From Dysidea avara (taxonomy: Eukaryota > Porifera > Demospongiae > Dictyoceratida > Dysideidae), in the NCBI RefSeq assembly GCF_963678975.1, contig NC_089285.1:9100694-9164693 (forward strand): a stretch of 64,000 nucleotides of DNA. Reading direction: 5' to 3'. This document shows positions 18,838 through 58,574 of the stretch, in pieces (position 1 is the first letter of the stretch; every line of letters begins with the position of its first letter). The position numbers and the translations under genes were made by a program. The notes beneath the pieces are model-generated. The model was given only the letters and a program-made list of their open reading frames with translations. It made no database searches and was not told the DNA's origin.

Positions 18838-20072
18838 CTATCTAAAAACCTCACTATAGACTACATTACGTGTTTTGCAATCCCCTCTAACTAAAAGTGT
18901 CAATCTATCTGCTGAACCTATCCTAGATAGTGCGACATAAAGCATGCCGTGTGTGAAGCTTTCGTCTGTCAAGTCTAATCCTACAGCCTTAAAAGTTTGG
19001 CCCTGGCTTTTGTTAATGGTCATAGCAAAGCAAAGCGCAATTGGAAATTGAAGCCGTCTAAATTCAAAAGGCAAAACCGAGTTACTTGGAATGAGAGGAA
19101 CGCGTGGTATTATAATATCGTGTCCTGCATATCTACCATGAGAAATCTTAGCCTCTACTGTGTTAGCCGAGAGTTTAGTAACTACACTCCTAGTGCCATT
19201 AGTAACCCTTGGAGGATCTAGAGAGCGTAGAATAATAATAGGAGCACCTACTTTAAGTAGGAGAAGATGCTGAGGTAGTCCAGATACCTCTAAAGAGTTC
19301 AAGAATTCTGTTGGAAAGTGAACAGCCTGAGATTCATCAGGTATGGTGTCCAAGGACCTGTACTCACAACAGTCACCAGGTAACTGCTCCACCAGAGTCA
19401 TGTTGATGGAATGAGTGGTCTTGTTAAGAGGAGCAAGAATGCAGCGCTCAGAAAGCCAAGCCAAGTTCCTAAAGTTAGTGAGCAAATCTGGATACACCCT
19501 GGAAACCAATTCCTCCATGTTATTCACAAAGGTTCCCATGATGTCAGGTAGCTGGACAACATCAGGTGGAGTGTCAATAGGGAACTTCCCATCTCCAATG
19601 GCCAATAGTTCTTCAGCAAATTGTTCAGCTGCCACATCCCCACACAGGTGCACTCTCATGTTACTGTGTAGTTGTTTAACTACCACACTGTCCCACAGAT
19701 GAGATCGCTTGAGGCAAGCATCAACAATGTTACCTCTGGTGCCACCTTGAATGACAGGTAGAATCTGCCTGAAGTCACCACACAGTAGTACGCACTTGCC
19801 TCCCATTGGATGATCACTCCCTGTCAGGTCCCTCAGGGTACGGTCCAAAGCTTCAAAGGCACCCCTGTTGGTCATGGGGGCTTCGTCGACTACTATGGCT
19901 TTAGCCTCTATGATCACCCTGCAGAGTGCAGTTCCCTTCTTGATGTTGCACATGGGGATGTCCGATGCATGCAAGTCCAAAGGGATCTTAAAGGTGCTAT
20001 GCAAGGTACGTCCTCCAGTCAAGAGAGTAGCAGCTATTCCGCTAGAAGCAGTAGCTAATGCTATATTACCTA
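18838..20072 (-). CDS. Helitron helicase, C-terminal part (about 410 residues)
   Basis: It continues the frame interrupted at 25,156. Removing the Tc1 element with one TA copy restores the expected order LRSV-GNIALATASSGIAATLL. Visible helicase motifs are IVVDEAPM (Walker B, DEAP), GGKCVLLCGDFRQILPV (motif III), NKSQGQTF (motif V) and YVALSR (motif VI). The stop at 18,838 comes shortly after motif VI, as in complete Helitron helicases. The local Met codon near 20,157 lies in the Tc1 end and is not a natural start. Confidence 0.9.
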
Positions 20073-20325
20073 CAGTAGGGGCCATAAAAAAGTTTGCATT
20101 TCGTTTGTGGAAAACGATTAATAAATGATTGTATAATATCGTTAAATGATTTTGCAAGGGTTCGTTAAAACGGCATTACAGCTACAGTATCGTTATCAGG
20201 TTCAACGATTTGAATCGTTGTAATGATGTAGCGACGATTATGCTACAGTAAGTAATCATTCTAACGATTTAGTATAAATATTGCGAGGCGTCTCAAATAT
20301 TGTGCAAGCGTAGCCAACTAACAAA
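20073..20325. promoter_or_regulatory. Left subterminal zone with AACGATT motifs
   Basis: After the 37-bp terminal repeat, AACGATT or close variants occur near 20,106, 20,202, 20,230 and 20,261. One is palindromic (CAACGATTTGAATCGTTG, 20,201-20,218). The matching zone at 24,920-25,060 has copies near 24,925, 24,933, 24,962, 25,000 and 25,031. They could be binding sites for the transposase or the BEN protein, and the left zone also holds the transposase promoter. Confidence 0.5.
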
Positions 20326-21380
20326 ATGGTTTACAGCTCGTACGAGAAGCGGAGAATCCTTCATTTTCATCAGCTTGGGCATAAGCCACCGACTATCGTC
20401 AAGCTACTCGGCGAAGAAGACATAACCGCATCGCGAGTGGGTGTGGCTAAGTTTATCGCAACATTTGTGGAAAGTGGATCTCTTTCACGAAAGCCGGGCT
20501 CAGGAAGACCACCCTCAATCACAGTACAGATGCAACAAATAGTTGAAGCAAGGATGAGAGAGGACGACGAAACAACTGCGTACCAACTTTGCTCCCTGCT
20601 TCTGTCCTATGGCTTTAACATCAGCAGGAGAACCGTTCTCCGCTGTCGATCCCAATTAGGTTGGACTTTCAGAGGCAGTGCATACTGTCAATTGATAAGA
20701 AATGCTAACAAAGTGAAGCGACTGGATTGGACTCGCCAACATCTTCACGATAACTTCGATAATGTGGTCTGGACAGACGAATGTTCTGTCCAGTTGGAAA
20801 GCCACAAGCGATTTTGCTGCAGAAAGCAAGGAGAGCCACCGAGATTAAAACCCAGGTAATGATATATTCATCAATTCAACTATTACAAAATGTGTACGTT
20901 ATTTTATACAGAGCTAAACATCCAGTTAAAGTCCATGTCTGGGCTGGAATCAGCAGACGCGGTCGAACAGCAATCTGTATTTTCGAAGGAATCATGGACG
21001 CACCACTGTATATTCAAGTTTTGGAGAAGACGCTACTGCCGTTTCTCTCAGCTGTCTATCCCGATGGCCATCGCTTTATGGCTGATAATGATCCTAAACA
21101 CACCTCCAACGAAGCTCAAAACTACCTCACTGAGAAACACGTTGAATGGTGGAGGACTCCAGCAGAATCGCCAGATTGTAATCCCATTGAAAATCTGTGG
21201 CACGAGCTCAAGGAGTATAATCGCCGAGTTGTCAAGCCTACAACAAAACAAGAACTGATTCAGGGAATAAAGCAATTTTGGGAAACTGTTACTGTAGCCA
21301 AATGTAACAAATATATTAATCACCTTAAAAAAGTTTTACCTAAAGTAATTGAATGTAACGGTGCTGCTACTGGTTATTAA
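20326..21380 (+). CDS. Tc1-like DD34E transposase, 2 exons, intact
   Basis: Exons 20,326-20,855 and 20,912-21,380 (56-bp GT-AG intron, phase 2) encode 332 residues, close to the usual 340. The N-terminal paired-like helix-turn-helix is followed by the GRPP hook (residues 64-67). Catalytic residues are D in VVWTDECSVQ, D in MADNDPKHTS and E in PDCNPIENLWHELK. The second and third are 34 residues apart, the Tc1 hallmark. No stop or frameshift is present. It would cut the element out and insert it at TA. It has an intron, unlike most Tc1 genes. Confidence 0.92.
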
Positions 21381-21856
21381 ACATTGTGTTGTATCTATTG
21401 TATACTAAACTTGTTGTATTCTTGTATTATAATCACTAACCTTACAACGGTAACTCTGAAAAGATACAAGTGCGACTTCTTCAGTGATACAAATATCTCC
21501 ATTCTACACTTTCGCACGTACAAACTGTGAGGCCAGCTGTTAACAAGTAATTAAATCACGTGCTAATCTGTCAGCAGTTTGGGTAAGTTAATTAAGTCAC
21601 GTGCTTCCTGTCAGCAGAATTTTTGCAATCACGTGTGTCATCACGGAAAAAGGTCACGCTTTTAAATGAACTATAGGAACTCCGTTGTTTTATCTGAGCA
21701 GCTAAATTGTATCTCTTTAATCGTCATCACGAAAGGTAAGTACAGTATAATTAAACATTTTATGGGTAGCATTAAAATAGATACATGCGTGGCATTAAAT
21801 AGATATACACGTGTGACAGTAAATAGATAAAAGCCAATACAATAATACGTATGCTA
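21381..21856. other. Convergent 3' spacer between the two Tc1 genes
   Basis: Non-coding. Both genes end here tail to tail. The sequence has CACGTG-like and TCACGTG-containing short repeats near 21,557, 21,598 and 21,632, and AATAAA-like A-rich sequence, but no clear ORF. Confidence 0.4.
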
Positions 21857-24800
21857 TCACTTCTTTTCCTTTATTCTGAGGCCCTTACACACTTCCCCAA
21901 TAGACACAGTGCATGTTTTCCAGATCTGTTCAAAGGAGAGTGGATTTCCCCACTTGTCTGGAAAAAGGGAGAAAATTTTTGCCTTCAAATCATCGAGTTC
22001 CTTGAGAGGAAGACCTGGTTGACTACGTGAGCCAGCCACTGTGCATTGCTGAAGAACCCGGTCGCCAAAATATGATCTCTCCGCCAGTTTCCGTGCCAGT
22101 GTCCTAGCCCGTTTCTCATTGTGGAATTGTGGATACTTGGCAATAATAATATGTGGGTCTATTAATCCTGTCGTATCAATCTCCTTTGAAGGTAGGTGTT
22201 CAAACTTTGGCACGATTGGTATGCATGCTGGTTGTGATGATGGCTGGAGACCATTGGTATTTCGTGTTGTAGGTGTCTCTTCATGATGATCATTTGGGCA
22301 TACCATCAGAGAAGATTGGTTGTTCTTGGAGTTGTTACCTATGGCGGAAAGAAAATGTGGGTGGCTGATATGAACCTTGGACAGTTGTTAAAGTAAGATA
22401 ACATGTTAAACAGCTACATTTTTACATTAGTTTCTGCAGTACAAGTTTGCCATAGACTTGCAATACATATGTGGTTAAAAGCACTACAAAGTTTAGATAG
22501 ACTGTAGACTGCAGGAAGCAAGTTGTAATCCAATGCATAAATTACCTTTAATATACTTTTCTAATGCTTCAATTCGTAACATCAGGTCATTTTGATTTCG
22601 GAGAATTGCTTGAATAGTAGCCAATATATCTTCAAACTGTTGTTGCATATCTAAAGGATCATGCAAAACATAACAAAACTTCTTGTTTATATTTTACCTT
22701 TCTTCTTGTCTGCAGATTCATCCATCAAACCAGTGTGGTCTTCTAAAAATTGATCCATTTCGACAAACATGTCCAGCGCAGTATTCGCATCTTCAGTTGA
22801 GATGTTACTAAATAGTGAAGGTACAGTTGGTATTATTCCAGCATTCAATACTGTTCCACTACTAGTAGGTGATGAAACAGTGGGAGGTACAGTTGGTGAT
22901 ACTCCAGCACCGAACATCATTCCACCACTAGGAGGTGCTGAGCTATTAGGAAGAGCTGAGACAGTGAGAGGTACAGTTGGTGATACTCCAGCACCGAACA
23001 TCATTCCACCACTAGGAGGTGCTGAGCTATTAGGAAGAGCTGAGACAGTGAGAGGTACAGTTGGTGATACTCCAGCACCGAACATCATTCCACCACTAGG
23101 AGGTGCTGAGCTACTAGAGACAGTGAGAGGTACAGTTGGTGATACTCCAGCACCAAACATCATTCCACCACCAGGAGGTGCTGAGCTACTAGAGACAGTG
23201 AGAGGTACAGTTGGTGATACTCCAGCACCAAACATCATTCCACCACCAGGAAGTGCTGAGCTACTAGAGACAGTGAGAGGTACAGTTGGTGATACTCCAG
23301 CACCAAGCATCATTCCACCACTAGGTGCTGAGCTACTAGAGACAGTGAGAGGTACAGTTGGTGATACTCCAGCACCAAACATCATTCCACCACCAGGAGG
23401 TGCTGAGCTACTAGAGACAGTGAGAGGTACAGTTGGTGATACTCCAGCACCAAACATCATTCCACCACCAGGAGGTGCTGAGCTACTAGAGACAGTGAGA
23501 GGTACAGTTGGTGATACTCCAGCACCAAACATCATTCCACCACCAGGAAGTGCTGAGCTACTAGAGACAGTGAGAGGTACAGTTGGTGATACTCCAGCAC
23601 CAAGCATCATTCCACCACTAGGTGCTGAGCTACTAGAGACAGTGAGAGGTACAGTTGGTGATACTCCAGCACCAAACATCATTCCACCACCAGGAGGTGC
23701 TGAGCTACTAGAGACAGTGAGAGGTACAGTTGGTGATACTCCAGCACCAAACATCATTCCACCACCAGGAGGTGCTGAGCTACTAGAGACAGTGAGAGGT
23801 ACAGTTGGTGATACTCCAGCACCAAGCATCATTCCACCACTAGGTGCTGAGCTACTAGAGACAGTGAGAGGTACAGTTGGTGATACTCCAGCACCAAACA
23901 TCATTCCACCACCAGGAGGTGCTGAGCTACTAGAGACAGTGAGAGGTACAGTTGGTGATACTCCAGCACCAAACATCATTCCACCACCAGGAGGTGCTGA
24001 GCTACTAGAGACAGTGAGAGGTACAGTTGGTGATACTCCAGCACCGAACATCATTCCACCACCAGGAGGTGCTGAGCTACTAGAGACAGTGAGAGGTACA
24101 GTTGGTGATACTCCAGCACCAGAGATGCTCTCACCACTAGGATGAGCAAAAATGATATCAACAGGTATGTCTGACACTTCCAAGATTCTACCTGAAATAA
24201 AATATCTTACACCACAGTACTATATGTTGAATTTTGTACCCTTTTCTTTCTTCTTCTTTTCTTTTGTTGGTTTGTCCTTTGCCTGTTTGTCCTGTTTATC
24301 TTCTGTTTTACTCTTGTTCTTTCTTTTCTTCTTTTTAGGTGTTTCATTTGTGTTTAAAATGTTCTTTCTTTTCTTCTTTTTAGGTGGTTCGTTTGTGTTT
24401 AAAAAAGATGGTGACCATGTCTTGTTCACGAAATTATCTTCCAGCTTCTCCATATCGGATTTGGTTCCTGTAATATGTTTTGAATGATTTTTAAAGTGTG
24501 TGTATAATGTGTTACCTTGAGCAGCAACCATCCCATTATATTTATGCTGTACTGTACATTGTTTCCCCACCTCCATGGTGGTCTCGTCAATGGAAGCACG
24601 CTCCACAGTGGAAACACTGCCTTCATTAGGCCAGTACACTAAGGCATGACTGTGAGCTTCTGTAACAAATGAATTTCATAGAGTAATTAACAATTCACAC
24701 CCATTAGGTAAACTTACAAATTGGCTTACCACCTGTTAATTACGTTTGTGGGCTTCAAAGGAAACCGCACTGTACAAACCACTAAACATTACGCAACATT

Positions 24801-24866
24801 CAATAACTTACGCGTTTCCTTGCAGACGATAGCGAAGGCCCTTCGCACGCTTACAGGAACAGCCAT
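21857..24866 (-). CDS. BEN-domain nuclear protein carried by the Tc1 element, 6 exons
   Basis: Exons on the minus strand are 24,866-24,812, 24,659-24,516, 24,467-24,240, 24,191-22,698, 22,650-22,546 and 22,338-21,857. All introns are GT-AG and phase 1, and the total of 2,508 nt gives 835 residues. Residues 19-66 form a small domain (ALVYWPNEG...VGKQCTVQHKYNGMVAAQ). Two PKKKKRK nuclear-localisation signals lie near residues 96 and 111. Residues about 150-610 are 17 tandem repeats. Exon 5 (about 641-675) is a coiled coil (QQQFEDILATIQ...LMLRIEALEKYI). The C-terminus (about 745-830; ARTLARKLAERSYFGDRVLQ ... W-x-x-C-x-x-SIGEVCKGLR) looks like a BEN domain, a DNA- and protein-binding fold found in chromatin factors. 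It could bind element ends, recruit chromatin factors or repress the transposase. This is inference. Confidence 0.8.
22860..24150. repeat. In-frame coding minisatellite of about 75 bp, 17 units
   Basis: Each unit encodes GAGVSPTVPLTVSSSSAPPG plus a short GGMMF linker. Lengths are 72, 75 or 84 bp, always a multiple of three. Variant types (APPGGG, APSGG, ALPGGG) recur in the same order, which shows a higher-order repeat of about four units. Units are almost identical in DNA, so they were amplified recently. The array also stays open on the other strand, which is a by-product of the unit length. Confidence 0.9.
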
Positions 24867-25155
24867 TCCAACTTTCTTCTCTGTAAAAGAATAACCCCGC
24901 CTTCCCGCTAGCGCCCATATTTCATGCACCGCGAACGATTTAACGATTGCGCAATGTATAATAACGATTTGTTATACGCATGATGATGATGTAATGCATT
25001 GTAACGATAGCTTAGTGTGTTCTGCATGCATAACGATTCGTACAGTACAGTTTTCGTCGCCGTGCATGGTATCGTTTCATGTGAAGAAGGATGAAATGTA
25101 TCGTTTAATGATGGTGTTCACAAACGAAATGCAAACTTTTTTATGGCCCCTACTG
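24867..25155. promoter_or_regulatory. Right subterminal zone and promoter side of the BEN gene
   Basis: It contains five AACGAT(T) motifs between 24,925 and 25,037 and then the 37-bp terminal repeat. Being immediately upstream of the BEN gene's first exon, it should hold its promoter. The pattern mirrors the left zone. Confidence 0.5.
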
Positions 25156-28100
25156 TACAGACCTAAGTTTAGCTAGAATAAGATTGATCAAGAAAGTTTT
25201 GCCAGTTCCACCAGGAGCATCCAAGAATAACATGCCTCCCTCGTCCCTATCTATCATGGAGCAAAAGGTGTCATAGACATCTCGCTGGTCAGCAGTAAGC
25301 AAAGGAACATTACAATTTATGTACGCTTGTTGCTCTTCATGATTATAGTCAATCTCCCTACGGTACACGCGTGCAAACCTATCGCTATCCACTGTCTGAG
25401 GATGGGGGAGCCCATACTCAGACAGTTCCCTACCTCCCATGGAAATAACTTTTTCCTGCAAGTCATTGAGAGCCACATTGAAGATGTCATCATTGAACTC
25501 CAAGTCTTCATCCTGATGTTGAGTACGTTGCTGGTGCAAGAAGTCCTCTGCCATGTCTTCCTTGTGATTCTCGTAAATCTCCAGAGGGTTGGATGGTTCA
25601 CACCAAGTAAGGATCACTGCAAACAGGGTGCGAAGACTTGCAGGTGAGTTGCTTACTGATGCCTCATCCATAGCCAAGTGGTACTGATTATCATCCTCAA
25701 GAAGACCTAACCTCAAGCATGCATCCCTAAAGGAACTACAGAGGTCACCTTCAACAGTTCTCAAGTCAGCAAAAGACTGAGGTCCCCTAACATGATGAAG
25801 CAGCAATCGAAGGTAGAAGCATTCTCCCTGACGTGGACTGATGGTGTAGACTCTGCCTATAACCTGAGCCTCCTTAACTCCAGGATGGCCAGCGACATCC
25901 TTTCCCTGTTTTCTCCTGTTCCAAGTCTTCCTACTCCACGTGTAGTACTGAGGCACTTCTTGATACAACAGAGTCCTGGCGAAATCATCAGATTGACAGA
26001 GAACAAAGAACTCTGTCAACGTAGTCTTTGGAGGGTCGCCAGAAACCTGTTCTCTTGCTGTATCTTCAGTGAAGTACACTCGCTGGCCATTCTCCAAGTG
26101 AACAGCAAGCTGTTCCACAGGAGGAAACCTTTCATGTATGGGGAACTCCAGTATCCTCCAGGCAGCCTCGCTGCTGCTGATGTAGCGTGCATTCTGGAAG
26201 TCCGAGATCTCATCCACCTGATGAGACCTCAGAGCAAAGGTTGCCTGATCACAACCCTTGTGTATGTACTTCAGTACATACTTGATGGATTTGATGGACA
26301 TGCAAAGCTCGACATTACAGTGACAGTTTAAAGAACGAAGCAGAAGTTTGTTGTAAGGCACAATCCACCTATTGTCAATCTCCTGAGTAATGCGAGACCC
26401 CATCACCCTCATGTTAATGGTAGCCACCTGTCCACCATCCTCAGGGCTCCTCCTCCTGTACAGTGGGTAACTGTCTGCACCTAGTTGGGTATCAGCCTTG
26501 AACTGCTTTGGGTAGCTCTTACTGCAGCGACCATCTTCCATGCAAGGGGAGTCAGGGTTGATGCTCCCACAGGGCCCGTGTACCATGTTGCAAGTCACGA
26601 TCTGATGCAGCTCAGGATCAACCGTTGGATCAGGGATCTCAGCACAGATGACATCATCAATCGTATCTGGAGTAATCTTGTGCTCCGGAATAAGCCACAA
26701 CAGCAAATGACAATGTGGCAAACCGCGCTTTTGCCATTTTATTGAGTAGAGCCTTGCCCGTGGTTTCCCAAAAATCATCTCCTTTGTGAACATCTCTAAC
26801 AATTTCTTCACCTTAAGCCTAAACACACGTGCCACTAAGTCTGGACGGTCCAGAGGCTCCTGACCTGGTAGTAGATTGTTCCTAATCTCCGGCCAATTAG
26901 GATTGGTGGTCATGGTGATGAAGAGATCGGGGTGGCCATACTTCCTAACGTAAGTCATTGCGTCCTGCTGACGCTCATGCATGTAGCGTGGTCCACCAGT
27001 GAATGATGATGGTAGAATGACCCTACGACCAACATTCCTGGGGTCACCATCCCCATCTACCATTGCATCCCGCAAATCTTGGTAGCAATCAGCACGTAGT
27101 GACTTCTGTTCACGCCTGAGAAACTGTAAGCGCTCAGTTTCAATCTTACAGTAGGTGTCAACCAGGAATTGCTGGAAAAGCCATTTAGCCTTAAGCATTA
27201 CAGGCACTTGCTGCCTAACCATGATGTGGTAGCGGTAATACACCATGGCTGTTAATTTCCTACCATTAGCCAATTTCAGGTTGATGTGCCATCCATCAGT
27301 GCCATAGGAAAAGAGTAAAGGATACTGCAAAGGATCATATCCCCTATGAAGTTCAGAAATGCGCTGCAAAGACCCATCCCTATAGTGCAAAACTATGTCC
27401 CTATTATTTACATTATCATTAGGCATTAGCACTCCTACCTCGTCACACATCGGGCTATTATACCTCCTAGCATGCTCTCCTACGGGCCGTTTGTTCTCGT
27501 TAATCACTACCCTAACATTCGCTGGCTCATCATGCTGCTCAAATATTTCTTTAGCTACTTTAATAAGCTGAACATAGTGATTATTGTCATGCAAAAGCTC
27601 ATTAATGCCCCTAACTATGTCAAGCCTTAACCCATCAACTATTCCACACCTAGTAGCTAATTCAGTTTGCTGATTGTCAATAAAATAAATTTGGGAAAAT
27701 TTAGGAGACTCACCTGCTGATGGAACTAAACTACCTATACGATGATAGACCTGACCCTGTACTCTAAAAGAAGGATTGAAGCCAGCCATAGTTATCTCGT
27801 TACAGCCGAAGCTTGTCATTTGAAATGCACTATTGTACTTACGTATGGTATGTAGAAAATGTCTACCTGCCGAGTCCGTACCTTCATACAGGTGTCTTAA
27901 GAATGACTGAGGCTGTGGAAATGCCTCTAACTGGACATTTCCCTTCAAGCAACAAAGGGATTCCGTCTCCTCGGGAAATTTTAATGCGCCACAGTGTGTG
28001 CATTCTACACTAAGTGCGCCTACATCTGTAGTGTTGAAGAAGTTGTGTGGCTGATAGTTAAACCCCCTAAAGCTTGGGTGTGTGCTTGCACGTACCTGTT

Positions 28101-28506
28101 GTCTGCGTGTGGTGTTAGCCTGCTGCTCCTGAGCTCTGTAGCGTGGATCAGCCCGAGATTCTTGATGAGCAGCTGTATTTTGTTGTTGCTCCTCCCTCCT
28201 TGTAGCTGGGTCCTCACGCGCCAGTCGACGGGCAGATGCATCGCGGATCCGTTCCTGTGATCTTCTTTCTTCGTCCTGGCGGGCCACACGATGGGCTTCT
28301 GCGTCACGTTGTCTTCGTCTATGTTGTGAGTAGACTTCACACCTGGCACTGGTCGAGGTGGTAGCTCGAGTTGAAGCCTCCTGGCGGCGCAGTCTTTGTC
28401 GTTCTGCTTCTTCCTGTCTCTTCGCTGGATCTAATCTTTGGTTCTGCTTGTGTCTCTTTGCTTGAGACGCACAAGAGGTAGACGATCGTTTTCGCTTAGG
28501 CGGCAT
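25156..28506 (-). CDS. Helitron Rep-helicase, N-terminal 1,117 residues
   Basis: The start MPPKRKRSS at 28,506 was chosen because it opens with an NLS-like basic cluster; an upstream Met at 28,524 is also in frame. Residues 30-150 are Arg/Gln/Glu-rich repeats typical of the family. A CTHCGALKFPEE...CC zinc motif follows (about residue 170). The HUH endonuclease motif GLPHCHLLLWL is near residue 593, and the two-tyrosine motif KYVLKYIHKG near 741. The PIF1-type helicase begins near 1,080, with Walker A APGGTGKTF near 1,098. The frame stops at the Tc1 insertion point at ILAKLRSV. The protein nicks and joins DNA ends during rolling-circle transposition and unwinds the strand. Confidence 0.9.
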
Positions 28507-28659
28507 GCTTACACAGCACATCAAATGAAATTTGAATTTGCAATATCACGTGTGTACAGTCTCGGCAAATGTAACGTGTATGATCATGTGTTTACAGTCA
28601 TATACAGTACAGGATTCGAACTCACGGTACACATTGAAGTTTCAAAAGGTACCCAGAGT

Positions 28660-35345: not shown

Positions 35346-36072
35346 GGTAATAAGGATTAAATACAAATTTACAGAACAATATTGTAGTTAGATCTATACT
35401 GTATTGTACAGGATTACAGTACAGTACACTTGTACAGGTATATAACAGTGTATGGTGTATTATAACTACAGTGTACTGTATTATAACTATATGTGGAGAA
35501 AATAATACAATTACAGTATGATATATAGTTATATAATATTGGTGTACTCTAGTTCTAAAAGTATCTGGATAATTTATTAATATTTCAATAATCCGAACAA
35601 ATTCACTAATCTGAACAGACTTTTGAAAACTTGAGTACAGAGCTGTTCGGATTAGTGAGGATCCACTGTACTGATGAAAGCCGGAACGGAACGGAATGGA
35701 ATGAAGAGGGGCGGGCGCTCACTGACTAATCGTGTTTAGAGCCATGATTGCTGATTTATTATACTGGGGGATACATTTTATAATACTACTACCACACACA
35801 CACTCACTTTGGCATGAAAGCCTTCAACTCACGAGTGGTTAGTCACGCGCAATTCTAAATAGCGCCCATCACGTGACATCGCGAATCTCTCCAATGTAAA
35901 ATAATCATGGTTGGTAATCTGGCAACAGTTGTTTCAGATAATATAATAGTTAGTCTCTCTTGTTATTGCATGTTATTGCACCTATTAGCTACGAAAGGCT
36001 GGATTTTAGTGTACTGAACTCGACATTAATTAGAATTAGTGTGCATGGCAACACGTGTTTGAATCGTGAGCA

Positions 36073-39000
36073 ATGGAAGGAGAGATAATAGACTTAACTG
36101 TTGACAGCGAAAGAGAAGAAGAAAGTGCTGATGATATTCCTAATGAAAAACCCAAGAAAAGGGAGAGGCTTGATGTTCATAGCAGGGAAGGGTATGATTT
36201 CATTATAACTTTTCATTTCTATGAAAATCTTTGTATGTTTTATGCATTACAATATTTGTTTCATTGAATATTTGCTTATATTTCTATACCTAGGATTCGC
36301 TCTTCTTCCAACAATTTGCCATGTTTCTTATTTGAGACTTTGTTGCAGCCTTCTGAAGCTTTTGATCTTTTACTTAATTTGTCACCTGGCCACCCTGATG
36401 TCTGTTCATCAAAGCCAGTTGGGGTAGTGAAGCCTGCAACATTTGTTGTTGCTAATAAAGCTGTTGGGAAGTTGGATGACTTAAAAGCTGATGATGTAGA
36501 CGTGTGGGAACACAAGGGAAAGCCAGTTAGAAGCTACCAGGTGTCTAGGTTGTTGTCTGGAGAAGTTTATGGAGCAGAATTAACTAAAGAGAGTGGAGAA
36601 AATATCTATGACCTAGTTCGTGTGTACTATCACCATAAGCATACTCCATCATTTCGTCGGACTTTGTTTTATATCAAAGGTAAGTATACAAAAGATAGGA
36701 GTAAATATTATTATATGTTTCAGGACCTCGGAAGATTCCACTCACTATTATCCAGTATACATTTTCTGATGGGACAGTGATTCCCATTAAAATGGCACCT
36801 CATGGGAATTTCATTTCCAACAAGAGACCATTTTTTTGTACGCAGTCCAACACTCTTGATTATATGAAGGATAAATTATCTGGTCTGACACCCAAGGGTA
36901 TTATAAATGAAACGTAAGAAAAGGCTGGAGGATCTCTTCAATGTCAAGCTGCAGTGAGGTGGGGCGCAATTTAAGACAGGTTTACAACATGAAGGCTACC
37001 CAAGGAACCACATCAGGCTTGAGCTCAAACTGTGATAAAGATCTGATATATGATCTGTTAGAACAACATTATCATGGTGCACCTGGGTTTGTACGTAATG
37101 TCAGTTTTGATGATGGAATCATGTCCATTGTTGGTACAGATCAGCAGTTCTATGACATAAGCCGATTTTGTACACGTAGTGGATGTGCAGATGGATATGT
37201 CCTTGGTGTCGACCCGACGTTTAACCTTGGGGATTTCTATGTGACACCCATTGTATATGAGCACCAAGTGATTGTGAACAAAGAGACTGGGAAACATCCC
37301 ATCTTCATTGGTCCTGTGCTGATTCACACAGACAGAAAGTATTCAACCTACTCTTATTTTGCCTCTCAGTTGAAGAAGTTATGTCCTGATATAGAAGATT
37401 TAATCGCTGTTGGGACAGACGGGGAAGAAGCATTGTCTTCAGCTTTTTTATCAGTATTTCCTAGTAGTATTCATTTGCTGTGCAGTTTGCACAAGAGGGA
37501 TAACATTACAAGGAAATTGAGGGAGTTCAAAGTTGACGACTGGGTAGTGAAGGATGTGTTGGGTGACATATTTGGTAGCAAGGTTGATGACTCATATTTT
37601 GAGGGGCTGATAGATGCCAAAGAATCTAGAGAATTTATGGACAAGCTTGAAACATTGAAACCAAAGTGGGAAACACAATGTGCAGGATTTTCAGAATGGT
37701 TTTCAGTTTACGAGGCAGAATTGTTTTGCACATCCATGATTGCTTCTGTCCGCACTGCTGCTGGTTTAGGAAACCCACCAGAAGGCTATACAACAAATGC
37801 AAGTGAATCACTTAATAATGTTTTGAAGCGAAAGGTCAACTTCAAACGTAGTGAATGGCCTCAGTTTAACAATGTTCTCTTTGACTTAGTAAGGGAGCAA
37901 CAAGAAGAGTTGAAAAGGCTGTCTTCTCTCAAGGGGAGTACAAAATGGTTGACGAGTGTCAAGATCTTCAAGTTACTCATTTGAATTGGATTCAGATGAA
38001 CTCTGCACAGCAAAAATCTAAAATTGAGAGGGCTCAAAAAGCCAAGCTACACAAAGATTCTCATGTTTTTGTAGAGCCTGAACAGTCATCATCAATGCAG
38101 ATCAGCAAGCATTTGAGTATAAAACTAGAAGATGCATGAATATCACATGTTAGCCGAGATAAGTTGAAACGCATGTGGGAAAAAGCTGAAAAACTCTGTA
38201 GTGGTGATGGTTTAGTGTTACCAACAGCTGGTGCTGTGGGAACAGCTCGTCAAGTTGCTAGTTTATCTGCTTTTGATTCTGGAATTGCAGGAACACCTCA
38301 TAATGTAACCTCACAGGTACGAAAGGTTGGCAACGAAGTCAAATGTGATTGCCCAGTGTATCGCAGCTCTCCACATGACTGTCAGCATGCTCTAGCTGCA
38401 GCAGATGATCTTGGTATACTTGATGCATATCTGCAATGGCTTCGGAAAACTAAGAAAGGCTTAAACATCTCACAGCTTATTGCTGACAAGATACCTAGTG
38501 ATGCAGGGAACAAACCATCAGCACGACGCAAAGGTGTAGCAAAGACAAAGAAGAAGCAGTCTGCTAGTAAAATTTGCAACCCTTCCCCATCATCAAATTC
38601 AACATGTGCACAATTCGTTGTTTCTGAAAGTACAGACACAGTGTCTCCAACTAAGAATTCTTGCACTCCTGAGAGTTTTGCATCCAGTGATAACCTTTCA
38701 TCAGAATGTCATTCCTTGTTTTCTAATGTTGCTAATTCACCTTTTAGTTTAAACCCTCCAGCCTACAATGCATACCCTCCACCATCCAATCGCTACCCTC
38801 CACCATCCAACTGCTACCCTCCACCATCCAATTACTACCCTCCACCATTTAATGCTTACCCTCCACCACACAATGCTTACCATTCACCATACCCTCCACC
38901 ATTGCCGATTCCTTCATTTCAGATGGTACCACCTGTGGGTAACTATGCACAGCCAAGTATTGGTACATCAGCTGGTCAACTAAATGCTTCATCTCAAGGG

Positions 39001-39345
39001 AAGCCCGTTTTCACTTTGCAATGGCTGAGCGGAAAGATACGAAAGTGTTATGGATGTGCCAGCAATATCTGCACTGACACCAGCATTATTCCAGATCCTC
39101 CATATGATTTAGTGGTACGGTATAAGGAACGAAGGTACTACAGAGACACTGCCACCCAGTCTATGCAGTCTATGAAGTTAACAAAAAATGAAGAAAACAC
39201 TTACTATCATCCAATGCAAAGATGTATACAAATGAAGCATCCATCTTTCAATACTAACATGCTAGACATTCCAGCTGAGCTAGCACATGATCTCTTACCT
39301 ATTCACAAATCACACATGTTTGATAACTTTGACATTTTTCTTTAG
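36073..39345 (+). pseudogene. MULE transposase with SWIM zinc finger, lightly decayed
   Basis: Exon 1 is 36,073-36,191, exon 2 36,294-36,679 and exon 3 starts at 36,724. The protein has an acidic N-terminus with a basic NLS-like KPKKRERL, then the MULE DDE region (GYVLGVDPTFNLGDFYVTP ... VGTDGEEALSSAF ... LLCSLHKRDNI, 36,941-37,984). A SWIM finger follows (CDCPVYRSSPHDCQHAL, about 38,345-38,395), then a YPPPSN-type proline repeat and a C-terminal Cys/His domain (KIRKCYGCASNIC...PPYDLVVRY). A stop at 36,914 with a frameshift near 36,935, a frameshift near 37,945 and a stop at 38,139 break the frame, so this copy is probably inactive. Confidence 0.8.
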
Positions 39346-39850
39346 GTTTACAAAGCAAACTATTTGACTGATTCATTTTTTGTTGTGTTATTTGAATGAT
39401 CATTTTTTTCCTGTGTTATTTGATGGATCAATTTTTAGCTATGTTGAGTTAGAATTTTTTTGCAAGTATGATCAGTAACACTGCAATGATTTGAGTTATT
39501 CCAATTAATGCCGAGTTTAGTACACAAAAATCAGCCTTTTGTAGCTAATAGGTGCAATAACAAAAGAGACTAACTATTATATTATCTGAAATAACTGTTG
39601 CCAGATTACCAACCATGATTATTTTACATTGGAGAGATTCACGATGTCACGTGATGGGCACTATTTAGAATTGCGCGTGACTAGCCACTCGTTGAGTTGA
39701 AGGCTTTCATGCCAAAGTGAGTGTGTGTGTGGTAGTATTATAAAATGTATCCCCCAGTATAATAAATCAGCAATCATGGCTCTAAACACGATTAGTCAGT
39801 GAGCGCCCGCCCCTCTTCATTTCATTCCGTTCCGGCTTTCATCAGTACCC

Positions 39851-47689: not shown

Positions 47690-47815
47690 AAACATTTGAA
47701 TGCTTACGGAAGTATCCACTTGTAAAGAAAGATTTTCTGAAGTACAATACAACACTTCCCTCAAGTGCACCAGTAGAGTGACTCTTCAGTGCAAATACCT
47801 GTTTAGAAATAAATC
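47690..47815 (+). pseudogene. Inverted extra copy of the hAT dimerisation segment
   Basis: The plus strand reads [20 protein letters not shown] followed by a stop and LFSANT, the mirror image of the minus-strand copy at about 47,960-48,070. The two form an inverted repeat centred near 47,880, from an inverted duplication or a second hAT inserted in opposite orientation. Confidence 0.65.
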
Positions 47816-47959
47816 ACTTACATGACAAAGTTGTATATATTCCTGTCACTGCTAAGTCATTATGGCTAGTTACTCAAGTAAAATCTTTGTTGAATCTCAT
47901 GAGCAGAAGTCTCTCAAACCATGCATCCGTTAATCGATTTCGTTTTGGCGCTAATACAA

Positions 47960-49327
47960 GTGCTCATAAGCTGAAGAGTTACTCCACTGGTGCACTTGAG
48001 GGAAGTGTTGTATTGTACCTCAAAAAAACTTTCTTTTTAAAGGTGGATATTTCCGTAAGCATTCAAGCTTCAGTACAGTGCAGTGTTCTTTCAAAAACAT
48101 GGTCTCTCTCTCACTAAAGCCATGCAAAACAAGTTTAGCACATAAATCATTCAAAACTGCAAGGGAATTCTCAGCCACTCTTTCTATGATATCATAATAA
48201 GAGTTCCAACAAGTCGGAGAAGGAACTAAAAGCTTTCTTTTCAGTATTTCTTGTAGTTGATCTGAAGCAACAGTTGAGCGGCTGGCCTTGTAAAATAGTC
48301 ATGCATTTACTAAAAGTGCTTCTGTATAAGCTCCTATATGCTGGAGATGACGAAAGGAATTTGTTAACATCAGTGCTGGCAACCAGGTTGAGAGTGTGAG
48401 CTGCAAATCTCTGGTGAGGTGGTGATTCATAATCAATTTGTGATGAATCATCTTGTGTATCTACTTGATCAGGCACAATCAACTCTGCTACATCTACAAA
48501 GTCATTTCTTCTTCAAGCTCAATGTTGTCTTCAGTATCTGATGATTCTGGAACATCTAGAATTGGTAGCACAAAAGTGGTAAAAGCTTTGACAAAATTAG
48601 ACTTGTTGTCTGTAACTGTTGAACTTACTTTACTAGAAAGCCCAAAGGACTCATGGACACTTTCAATTTTAGCTGCAAGAACATTGTATGTGTGATGCAC
48701 TGGGATCTATCCAGTGCACGGTCACGGTCATCCCTAGGTAACTTCTTCTGTTAGCTGACCACACATATGCAGTTGTGCATACTCTTTCCACCATTACCGA
48801 TGTACCCTTCACTTTCGTTATCATAGAGTCACAAGTCTTGTCCAAGAACATACTTTCTGTTGGGCAAATGCACATTGATATACCACACACCAATTTACTA
48901 AAATATGGAGACTTAACTTTTGATATTGGCAACATATCTTCAATAGTATATTCAGCAACCAAACCTCACAACCTCGATGGGTTAATTGACAAGCTCATTA
49001 ATGACAGTGTGCACTGCCTCTTTGTCTGGCTTTGGTGTTCCTCATCATCATTGACTGATTTTCGTTTCCTAGTTTTCTCTGTTGTCAATGGCACTAGCAG
49101 TGTCATTTTATGTACTGTATTCAAATGCTTCCTAAGATTTGTAGTAGTGTTACGAGCGCTGGAGAGCGTTTTATTACTTGGTGCACCGAACTCATATGTT
49201 TTTGTCACCTTCCTCCACCACAGTAAAGTAGTGCCTAAGTCTCCATTGGTAGAACATTGCTTTCTTTACCTCCTCCACACTTGCACTGCCATTGCCATCA
49301 TCAGAGTCTTGTAGCTCCTCTGCCATT
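47960..49327 (-). pseudogene. hAT transposase relic (BED finger to dimerisation domain)
   Basis: From the right: a BED-finger-like part (NKTLSSARNTTTNLRKHLNTVH, 49,208-48,966), then AEYTIEDMLPISKVKSPYF and VCTTAYVWSANRRSYLG (48,962-48,669), then an acidic part and PHQRFAAHTLNLV (48,430-48,370). It ends with the hAT dimerisation signature (KYPPLKRKF...[11 protein letters not shown], about 48,030-47,960). Several stops and frameshifts break it. Confidence 0.75.
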
Positions 49328-50469: not shown

Positions 50470-52900
50470 TAATGCACTGGCATAACCAAAAACAAACACC
50501 CCATCTTGAATAAAAGCTAAAAGCCTAGGGCCTGAGGTAAAAACTCAGGGGTCAATATAACCCATGCATTTACCAGGAGACGTGGCACATATGTACAAGC
50601 ACCCCCAGATGTTGTTGTGTTAGAGTACACCACTTAAAAACATTTACGAAACTAACTGGTGAAACATTAACTAGGATTCGCTCCTTATGTGTGTGATGAA
50701 AATCCAAATCTCCTGCTGTATGTATGTAATCGTTATGCCACCAATGGAAGAGATTTGCGTATATACACACACCCTTTTCAAGACTAGAGCTGCAGGCCAG
50801 GGTGTATCATTGTGTTTACCCTGAGGACATGATTATAAAGTTTCTCATCCCTTCATCTTCTTTTCTTCCCTAAATACATTCCACTATACCCCCACCCACT
50901 GCCTAAGTGTGATCCCATTCCCTGAGCAATCTGAGTAATACCGCAAGTGCAGATTAGTACCAAAGCTCATGGACAAGTTGTAGCTCACAAATATTCTAGC
51001 ATGTACTCCAAGTGTTTATGCCATAATACAATATTCTCTCAGGCCAACAACTCAATCTGTTGGGATACAACATTTTAATACTTGGGCACAGAAGAAATTC
51101 TGTACCTATCCCACATTATCTTTATTTGTTGGCACAAGAAGACCACATCAAACGGATGGAAAGCATACTGTGCTCTACAACAATAAAATTTTATAATGCC
51201 CTTTTCTCCTGATAGTGCAAGAGAATGGTCAAGATACGTATGTTTGGGAACATGTGTTTATTGTTGTGGTGTAAAATGGTGGCTGTGTGCTGCTGTTTGG
51301 CCTATGGCCTTGCTACTGTGATCAGAGAGGCAGTGAAGCAGGAAGGCCGACCAAAATGCAGGTTTTGATGATTTTATAAAATCTTATATCCAAATGGTTG
51401 TCTTCTGTATTTGATATTGAGACTATTTCACATGATTTTCGTCACATGTGATTTTTCTATGGGACACGGTATTTTAGTGGTACATGCCACTTTGATGGGA
51501 ACCTACTATAGTATGCATGAGTTGAGCTGGATCCTTAAAAACATTTAATAACTCGTGGATGCAATTACACATGATCTTGAAATTTGACTCATTTGCAGCA
51601 TTGCTTGACCCACTAAAAATATTTTAAAATCTTTTCACTCAAATGTCTACATTACGTACTTAAGAACAGTATTCTAATAAATTAACACTGTCACAACAAC
51701 CAAGACACGAATGAAAAATGCACAAAAATACTCATGTTCCTTAAGTTCACTCTCTACCTTGGAGTGGTTCCTTATTGCACGTTTAGGACTTGTGTGTCAG
51801 GGCCTCAATATCTTAAAAGCAAACGTGTATATTTCTACAAATATGTGGCTACTTCACACCACAAGTGTTGACTATCACCAATGCCACTCATAAAGACAGA
51901 TGGTATCACTTATGTTGTACACTCCATGACCATTGCATAATCTCCCATTGTGCAATATTAAAAGTTACCAGTCTACATGCATATATGTACTGATTCAATC
52001 AATATGGTGATAGCATTGGTATAGACATATCTTCTAGTGATGGGATAGAAACCACTTTGAAGAATGCTTCATGTGAATACTTGTTTCTGACAGTACAAGT
52101 TTAACCAAGAGGAGCTTTAAGCATACTATTTAACCTGTGAGCCAGTGGCAGTATTTCTTCCATGTCCATGCCACTGTAGTGCCTCAAAGTGGTAGTCCGA
52201 TTTCCAAATTTTTTCATTTGTATTGTTAAATACATTACACCTGCAGATTGACTTGGCCATACTCCAATAAATTGGTACTCTTGTAGCGTTGATTTCACAA
52301 ATGTATCTTGCCAGTGTATGTGTCTCCAAATTGATGTCCGCAGCTTTAGTTAGAACAGCCAGGGGGGAATTAATTACAAAACCAAGTAGATGCTTTAGAG
52401 CGTATACAACAGGACTTCAACAGCAGTCAAATTGCAGCAGAACTGGAACTACAGTACATCTTGAAGCAGACGCCAAAAATAATTAGTTTCTTGACGTTGT
52501 GTCACTTGGTTACAAAATCCACAAGCGGCCTTCTTGTCAATTAATATGTCACAAGAAGTATTGGCTACATTATTGTTTTAATGGTTTTGTTTATCACGAC
52601 AGAGCAAAGTGAGTTATTTTAGTGCATAGTCTGCAGATAACAAGTGATCTTGGCTCTCAGCTTAGTGAAATCAGACACATCTTCACTACAAATCATGAGT
52701 AAGCCCTTCAAAGATATTTTGCAATTTCTTAGGTAGTGGTGATAGCCAGAGTGATGGAACCACGTCATTACAACAATTACAATCATCATAGAATGTGTAT
52801 CAGACAAGTGGCCAAGACTCAAGCACTCACTCCAGCATATCCAAAAATGACTTAAACAGTCCATGCTAGTAACTGTTGTTTTTCACTGAATCAGTCTATC
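50470..52900. other. Intergenic, no gene recognised
   Basis: No coding family is seen up to about 52,900. Part of 52,340-52,900 may belong to the decayed Tc1 relic that follows, but it has no clear motif. Confidence 0.3.
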
Positions 52901-52909
52901 CTGGCTCAC

Positions 52910-53191
52910 ACAGATTCATGCAAGACAATGACCCAAAACACACTTCCAGGATGGGTCAGACATTTCTGAGTGACAACAAGGAAGATTCCTACTGAATCAC
53001 CAGACCTGAACCCCATAGAGAACTTGTGGCATGAAATGGAGTACATCAGAAGAGAAGTGAAGGATAATGAATTGGCAGATGAAGATATGAAAATTTGGGG
53101 TTCAGTGTCTGCTGAGAAGTGTCAAGTATATATACAACAACTGGACAAAGTCATACCAATAATCATCAAGCTGGGCAGATCATGCACATAG
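52910..53191 (+). pseudogene. Tc1-like transposase relic, C-terminal part
   Basis: DNDP-like text (KTMTQNTLPGWVRHF in one frame, with the DNA reading DNDPKHTSRMGQTFLSDNK in another) is followed after a frameshift near 52,980 by TESPDLNPIENLWHEMEYIRREVK, the DD34E acidic end of Tc1 transposases. Its sequence differs from the intact Tc1 at 20.3 kb, so it is another, older family. Terminal repeats were not found. Confidence 0.7.
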
Positions 53192-56171: not shown

Positions 56172-56382
56172 AATCTACTGGTGTATCTTGTGGTTATATT
56201 GAGAACAAGAAAGTGAATGATTTGGTCCAGTGTTGAATCTAGAAGGTGCTACTAACTTTACTATTAACTTTAAATGTCTAAATGAACAGTGGAACTAGTT
56301 AAATGAACAGTGAACTAACTACTACAAAATATGTGTACTTTTTATGTAGTTACAGTGCGCATATACAGTGATTTGGTAAATA

Positions 56383-56524
56383 CACTGGATTTCAAGTCCG
56401 TTGTCCTATTTAAACTCGCACATGCGTTTCATTTATGTGCAAGATGGCTGTCAGTCAGTCATTCAAATGCTCGCGCCGTACGCATGCGCGAGTTTAAATA
56501 GGACAACGGACTTGAAATCCAGTG
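56383..56524. mobile_element. 142-bp palindromic MITE with TA flanks
   Basis: The arms start CACTGGATTTCAAGTCCGTT on both ends and are almost perfect for about 45 bp. TA flanks lie at 56,381-56,382 and 56,525-56,526. Non-coding, probably mobilised by a Tc1/mariner-type transposase. Confidence 0.8.
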
Positions 56525-57691
56525 TAACAATGAAGTGTGTTGACAGAAAATGTGGTTGTTGTTGTGTGTTTAAATTACACTATATCACACATAGTTACTA
56601 TGAGTACATGATAACCTATAATTGAGCACATGCTAATGGTGAATTCCTAGTGCTAAATAACTCTCTGGTAGGTTTCCCAGATGAATGCAATAGTTGGCGA
56701 TGCTTTCTAAAGCACATGACAGGTATCTAACAGTTTAAATACCTACCTGTAGGTATCTATTGGATTTTAAATATCTCATTAGCCATGAAACTTCAAAGCA
56801 TACTATGTGTGACAGTCTAAATAGAATAAACGTTTAAAATTCCAAGGAAAGGTTGGTCCTGTTTATATACCAAATTACCAACTTCATTAACATGCCACTA
56901 GGGGCAGTAGTCATGACAACCTAAATTAATAGGTCTACTACACACCACCCCTGAACATGTTATGGGATAGCTTGTTCACAGGCGTGAAAATGTGATAAAC
57001 TTGTTACCAACAACATTGTTCTCTGACAACACATGCTTCCTGCTAAGGTGCAACCTATTCCTTGACCAGTCAAAACAGGTTCAAAGGCCAGTACAAGTCA
57101 CATACACATCACAATCAACACTAGTCTAGCAGCACCCACCCCTTCACAGTACTGAGGAAGAGTCTCATGACCAGTCTACAGAGGTTTGTGAAATATTTGC
57201 AACAAAACTGTAAAGCACCAACCAAAAAAGGTGATCCATCAAGTTTGAAATGAGCTAAATTATGTGTCACCACAACTTTAATAGGTCATGTTCTAGTCAT
57301 TTCCTGTACTACATAGATTCTGCAATTCTCTGTATGGCACTTGTGCTATTACCACTATAGTGGTATAGACAATCAAATTGCAATAATTTAAATAAGTATT
57401 ACAGTGTAGTTTGTGCCATGAATAACACAATAACCATGGCAACCAAAATTTAGAACAGTTGGAATGTGGCTGACACTCTCCGAGATACAGATTTATGTTG
57501 AGAAGTATGAAGTTTTGTACTTTTGTCATTGAGTTACAACAGGTTAAAAGATCATGCTCAATTTTGAAACCATGTTTGTAGTGCATTTGTTTGCACAAGC
57601 ACTGTACACTGTCATCACCAGACCCTATGTGAAAGAGCATGCACTGCCAGACTAAATCAGCACCTATTTAAATAGAAATGCCATACCATAG
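56525..57691. other. Intergenic, no gene recognised
   Basis: AT-rich, no coding family seen. Confidence 0.3.
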
Positions 57692-58144: not shown

Positions 58145-58574
58145 TAGTCTCGCGTGGCCAGACCGCTTTTTTCCGTATATTGGGTAGGAAAAAAAGGGTC
58201 TGGTGCAACTCCAATAGCTGTTTACTTCTGAGCCGTCCCCACATTCCGGGGATGCTAATTGAATACAAAGGAGGTGCCATGACATCAGTAAGTTAACTAG
58301 AGATCTGTTTATCCTTTAAACGAATCTTAATTTGCTCTTTATAGCGTCTTAAAAGTTAATCCTCATCGTGTAACAAGACTCACAACCGGAGCAGGAGTGT
58401 AGGAATACTTTATAGTTTTACTGACGTCATGGCACCTCCTTTGTGACCAATGTTATTCAATTAGCGTCCCCGGAATGTGGGGACGGCTCAGAAGTAAACA
58501 GCTATTGGAGTTGCACCAGACCCTTTTTTCCCCACCCAATATACGGAAAAAAGCGGTCTGGCCACGCGAGACTA
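58145..58574. mobile_element. MULE-type foldback element, 9-bp duplication CACACATAC
   Basis: Inverted repeats of about 140-150 bp start TAGTCTCGCGTGGCCAGACC at 58,145 and mirror at 58,574. The flanks CACACATAC at 58,136-58,144 and 58,575-58,583 are identical. Non-coding. Long inverted repeats with a 9-bp duplication point to a Mutator-like transposase as mover. Confidence 0.88.

Follow-up and report, generated by a model that had tools for sequence, protein, structure and literature searches.

Does a six-exon gene that lies beside the transposase gene of a sponge Tc1/mariner transposon belong to that transposon, and what might its product do there? Animal Tc1/mariner elements normally have one gene, and to our knowledge transposon-encoded anti-silencing proteins are little known in animal genomes. 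The element that raises the question occupies 5,083 bp (20073-25155) of the window, by which we mean the whole 64,000-nucleotide stretch of Dysidea avara DNA that was analysed. Its parts are listed in Table 1.

Table 1. Features of the Tc1/mariner element and its target site, in window coordinates
Feature	Position	Strand	Remark
Left TA target-site duplication	20071-20072		
Left terminal inverted repeat, 37 bp, perfect	20073-20109	+	
Left array, six AACGATW	20113-20268		3 per strand
TATAAA, possible promoter	20273-20278	+	word match only; 53 bp before transposase ATG
Transposase exon 1	20326-20855	+	
Transposase exon 2, to stop	20912-21380	+	carries D235 and E270
Second gene exon 6, BEN-like domain and stop	21857-22338	-	
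Pfam BEN match, sub-threshold	21899-22099	-	computed from residues 27-93 of last 106 aa
Second gene exon 5, coiled coil	22546-22650	-	
Second gene exon 4, 17 repeats of 22-28 aa	22698-24191	-	tandem array 22877-24121
Second gene exon 3, two PKKKKRK nuclear-signal-like motifs	24240-24467	-	
Second gene exon 2, N-terminal region	24516-24659	-	no above-threshold family match
Second gene exon 1	24812-24866	-	55 nt; ATG at 24866
Right array, seven AACGATW	24934-25105		5 on +, 2 on -; upstream of second gene's ATG
Right terminal inverted repeat, 37 bp, perfect	25119-25155	-	
Right TA target-site duplication	25156-25157		

The element is bounded by perfect 37-bp terminal inverted repeats and flanked on both sides by TA, the target-site duplication of the Tc1/mariner superfamily. 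When the TA is counted, the inverted arms (20071-20109 and 25119-25157) are 39 nt long and 100% complementary, and weaker similarity between them extends to about 57 bp. A search of the window for the initial 31 bases of the repeat, with up to three mismatches allowed, hit two sites, which are the two ends of the element (chance expectation 0.00), so that no further copy with these ends was found there. The insertion is the sole interruption of a Helitron-like gene on the minus strand (18838-28545), and the frames that neighbour it on that strand match Helitron_like_N (3.3e-57) and PIF1 helicase (1.8e-51). When the empty site was reconstructed by joining 200 bp of each flank with one TA, a single open frame ran across the site, and with longer flanks the joined Helitron frame comprised 1,540 codons and closed exactly. 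The stretch between the repeats thus arrived as a unit, and recently, given that the restored frame has no other break; the insertion of a two-gene Tc1/mariner transposon is apparently recent and the element intact. The perfect ends with their target-site duplication, the closure of the Helitron frame and the array of AACGATW motifs at both ends described below all argue that the two genes belong to one transposition unit, which we regard as very probable. The original prediction had claimed both the perfect 37-bp ends with TA duplications and the position of the two genes inside them, as one mobile unit; the first of these claims is confirmed and the second is supported.

A nested later insertion or an assembly error might instead have placed the second gene in an ordinary Tc1 copy. 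One copy has been seen, and the near-identical repeat array within exon 4 is hard to assemble, both of which would suit such an origin. Nevertheless, neither long inner inverted repeats nor a flanking duplication turned up around the second gene, the window contains no N bases, and the second gene adjoins the terminus together with its motif array, with frames that are intact. We therefore consider an artefact of this kind very improbable. No second copy of the element was found in the window or in two sequence collections, viral_contigs and genome_contigs, which hold mostly viral and prokaryotic DNA and so say little on this point. In viral_contigs, the 20-base end sequence had 0 matches, as did sequences from the inner end and from the repeat unit, and peptide-pattern scans matched 4, 1, 14 and 34 stretches, none of which was confirmed. 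One stretch of genome_contigs did match the 20-base end sequence; this site falls within a bacterial reading frame of 496 codons and was set aside as a chance match.

Other traces of mobile DNA are present in the window. Part of a related but decayed Tc1 transposase survives at 52873-53188, recognisable in two frames (46.6% and 57.1% identity, E 3e-21), and tblastn with the 835-aa second protein at E<=1 detected no second gene near it. Inverted arms of about 370 bp that are 91.6% identical (35668-39848) enclose frames with a weak match to a MULE transposase (8.1e-4, below the cut-off), and this stretch of about 4.2 kb is probably a Mutator-like element. MITE-like palindromic or inverted-repeat units without frames are found at 58145-58574, 56381-56526 and 47696-48066. 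The window contains no tRNA and no Rfam family at its gathering score.

The transposase gene encodes 332 amino acids in an intact frame, with two exons separated by a 56-bp intron. Its triad is D151, D235 and E270, and the 34 residues that separate the last two make it a DD34E enzyme of the Tc1 type, as had been predicted. Residues 147-292 of the spliced protein match Pfam DDE_3 with 74 bits, where the cut-off is 28.6, and comparison with solved structures gave one match, to Sleeping Beauty (6.1e-26). The N-terminal matches to HTH_32 (27.9 bits, E 3.4e-6) and HTH_Tnp_Tc3_2 (19.6 bits, E 0.0011) fall below their respective cut-offs of 33.7 and 31.5. The protein had no match among phages. Among plasmids it matched 28 records, all at less than 60% identity, and the 20 that were listed are bacterial IS630 or unannotated.

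The second gene lies on the minus strand, convergent with the transposase gene, and its six exons join in frame to give 835 codons. The five predicted introns are all GT-AG, all in phase 1, 47-207 bp long and 64-75% A+T. We also scored the exons with a codon model built from the Helitron frames and the transposase, independent of the original gene reading. The claimed frame came first among the six for exons 2, 3, 5 and 6, and second for the short exon 1 and the repeat-bearing exon 4. In exon 4 the antisense frame outscores the sense frame but holds two stops. With its phase-1 introns and with first-ranked codon support for four of the six exons, the convergent 835-codon gene thus stands as it was first read from the sequence. 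Two further observations concern its annotation. The higher-scoring antisense frame is open for 463 codons over the repeat array on the plus strand (22754-24145). In addition, a splice-acceptor-like stretch, TTCTTTTACAG, lies on the minus strand at 24876-24890, about 15 bp before the ATG of the second gene, and it makes possible a non-coding first exon farther from the ATG, either within the motif array or past it.

The protein predicted from this gene carries a set of features whose combination makes a DNA-binding regulator likely, namely nuclear signals, a coiled coil and a BEN-like domain. The two PKKKKRK motifs arise from a 45-bp in-frame tandem duplication (24315-24404), 17 repeat units of 22-28 aa are present, and in the exon-5 stretch the heptad a/d positions are hydrophobic in 9 of 10 cases, so that the motifs, repeats and coiled coil originally described are borne out. 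The N-terminus may resemble human BEND5, and weak LRP6 matches to the N-terminal region (E 0.09-0.94) were taken as chance. No zinc finger, kinase or tyrosine recombinase family of Pfam was listed at E<=1 for the two pieces of the protein outside the repeats.

The claimed BEN domain found a more divided outcome. On the last 106 aa, the Pfam BEN profile (PF10523) aligned over positions 2-68 of 76 and scored 14.2 bits, below the gathering score of 23.2 (E 0.053), and it was the sole Pfam family listed for this piece at E<=10. When a longer C-terminal piece of 254 aa was used at E<=1, BEN was absent and four other families appeared, all below their cut-offs; the best of them, CENP-K (0.033), was located on the coiled coil. 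Two of ten control sequences (one reversed, nine shuffled) listed a family, with E values of 0.28 and 0.18. Sequence comparison of the C-terminus with solved structures gave no match up to E 10. The BEN fold consists of two strands and five helices, the last of which reads the major groove; two single-sequence models of the BEN-like C-terminus were all-helical and of poor confidence (pLDDT 44.9 and 45.5). Because BEN had been proposed from the sequence before any search was made, chance agreement with one of 24,736 families is unlikely, and on this sequence evidence we think that the C-terminus is probably a BEN domain. Since its score lies below the gathering threshold, we call it BEN-like.

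We counted words in the two stretches between a terminal repeat and the neighbouring start codon, with no word preselected, and found that AACGAT is the top 6-mer common to both, with six sites on the left and seven on the right. All 13 sites are followed by T or A, hence AACGATW. The interval from one start codon to the other (20326-24866) contains 0 sites, and the rest of the window has 12 scattered AACGAT sites, no two of them within 253 bp. None of 2,000 dinucleotide shuffles reached the AACGAT count of either end, and when the best word common to both ends was taken, whichever it was, 0 of 1,000 shuffles matched AACGAT (the best shuffle reached 3). Among random pairs of window stretches, 1 of 2,000 shared a word equally often, the simple repeat TCATCA (9 times). 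The arrays end 57 bp before the ATG of the transposase and 67 bp before that of the second gene. The two termini of the element are therefore built alike, and each also serves as upstream region to a gene that reads inward. That an array lies just upstream of each inward-facing gene is our main reason for thinking that the second gene looks integral to the element, not swept in. The word "passenger" that was first applied to it is probably the wrong one, in that the layout fits an integral regulator better.

The arrays also bear on the CpG content of the element. The ratio of observed to expected CpG is 1.89 at the left end and 1.58 at the right end, compared with 0.44 for the whole window and a median of 0.37 over its 280-bp stretches. 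The motif itself contains a CpG, so that part of this excess is simply the motif: AACGATW supplies 6 of the 14 CpGs on the left and 7 of the 19 on the right, and the 8 and 12 that remain roughly equal the numbers expected from base composition. The ends are thus enriched in CpG through the motif and are otherwise undepleted. Low CpG loss at the ends could be due to the youth of the insertion alone, which would account for the undepleted ends but not for the CpG contrast of the second gene. The two transposase exons are little depleted (0.87 and 0.77), whereas the second gene is CpG-poor, at 0.46 without exon 4 and 0.08 within it. This contrast inside one element, between 21857-24866 and 20326-21380, perhaps reflects separate histories of the two genes.

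A different history of this sort may hint that the second gene is cargo. The fungal relative Ant1 carries captured host sequence. A host BEN-family gene could have been captured together with its introns by a Tc1 element that it does not serve, in which case AACGATW would belong to the transposase or to a host factor. The retention of five introns would fit a capture, as would our finding no report of a BEN gene inside a Tc1/mariner element in the literature searched, the broader part of which was covered in excerpt. Two considerations make us view cargo as unlikely. The array stands directly before the second gene as it does at the other end, leaving the gene with no host-like upstream region of its own, and without selection a frame of 835 codons would not have stayed intact unless the gene was captured very recently.

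The reading that we tentatively favour is instead that the second protein acts on the element's own ends as a self-acting regulator or anti-silencer; we place it ahead of, in descending order, cargo, an end-bridging factor, a host-directed factor and an artefact. On this reading gene 1 is an ordinary DD34E cut-and-paste transposase, and gene 2 belongs to the element as an accessory gene whose product is nuclear. This protein would oligomerise via its coiled coil, and its BEN-like C-terminus would bind the AACGATW arrays between the terminal repeat and each gene start. Once bound, it would keep both of the promoters located in the termini active or unmethylated, and it may also help to hold the ends of the element together. 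A true BEN fold, binding to AACGATW and the consequence of that binding are all things that we infer. The link between the second protein and AACGATW is one of position, and the sites could instead serve the transposase or a host factor. If the reading is correct, a transposon of a kind that normally has one gene has acquired, in an animal genome, a regulator that acts on the element itself, and the element offers a compact testable pair of one protein and one 7-bp word. Moreover, transposons would then carry genes for BEN chromatin factors from one genomic place to another, which bears on the origin of these factors.

Two other roles for the second protein deserve mention. TnpA of En/Spm is an accessory factor that acts on subterminal arrays in the assembly or bridging of ends, and the second protein could likewise be an accessory transposition factor that binds the subterminal arrays and helps in assembling or bridging the ends, with no role in silencing. 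The presence of arrays at both ends in mixed orientation, the coiled coil and the length of the element are all consistent with such a factor. We nonetheless judge it rather unlikely, as Tc1/mariner transposases mostly work alone (a title cited in PMC5704228 has purified mariner transposase as sufficient in vitro) and the triad of the transposase is intact here. Alternatively, the protein may act on host chromatin or host genes and not on the element. BEN proteins are, after all, chromatin and transcription factors, but a host-directed role leaves the arrays at both ends unaccounted for and seems to us improbable.

For the self-acting regulator, a more specific version can be drawn by analogy, and we offer it as a doubtful extension: a Tc1/mariner element may have evolved an epigenetic self-defence in which the BEN-like protein reads unmethylated AACGATW arrays and keeps the two terminal promoters open, a counterpart of VANC that would have been built independently from a chromatin-factor domain. 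The self-acting regulator as such, apart from this extension, draws support from published work. Excerpts of PMC11472053 describe BANP and BEND3 as binding unmethylated CpG-containing motifs, with BANP needing oligomerisation to select them. In excerpts of PMC5735166, VANC21, encoded by a VANDAL element, binds a short motif arrayed in the non-coding DNA of its own element, and VANC causes loss of methylation.

How the element compares with known systems depends on which of its parts is considered. Its TA target, inverted ends and DD34E transposase are those of the Tc1 clade (Sleeping Beauty and its kin), from which it differs in its length of 5,083 bp, its six-exon second gene, the 56-bp intron of its transposase and its AACGATW arrays. 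The second protein shares with BANP and other coiled-coil BEN proteins the pairing of a coiled coil with a BEN-like domain and a CpG-containing site, here a candidate one; it differs from them in being encoded by a transposon, in its sub-threshold BEN match, and in the order of its parts and its repeats. We know of no BEN-like domain in the VANDAL/VANC system of Arabidopsis. Two features of the element are VANC-like, in that the second gene lies inside the element's ends and a motif that is rare elsewhere is dense in its non-coding DNA (13 AACGATW sites in the ends against the 12 scattered AACGAT). Both systems would thus combine a transposon-encoded DNA-binding protein, predicted in our case, with a short motif dense in non-coding DNA (PMC5735166, in excerpt). 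VANDAL elements are Mutator-like and belong to a plant, and their motifs are described there as lying in one orientation, whereas the sponge element has them in both. In Sola1-1_Ec32 of the brown alga Ectocarpus, a protein encoded on the opposite strand has been suggested to bind the transposon that encodes it and to modify it epigenetically (PMC12477816, in excerpt). There too the accessory gene is opposite in strand to the transposase, but the element measures 21.5 kb, belongs to the Sola superfamily and features a ParB-like domain and a DNA methyltransferase.

Additional ORFs within Tc1/mariner elements have their closest precedent in ciliates. The Oxytricha TBE elements have three ORFs, for a 42-kD transposase, a 22-kD product and a 57-kD product with zinc finger and kinase (PMC4724952), and 13 IS630-Tc1-mariner elements with several ORFs have been described from Paramecium (PMC5405496). 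The statement made at the outset of this work, that Tc1/mariner elements normally have one gene, is accordingly fair for animals but too absolute for the superfamily. The extra ORFs of the ciliate elements are of unknown kind, zinc-finger/kinase or tyrosine recombinase, and the excerpted texts of these papers name no BEN domain among them. Tc1/mariner elements with several ORFs were thus already known, and what this analysis adds to the first description of the sponge element is the AACGATW arrays at both of its ends.
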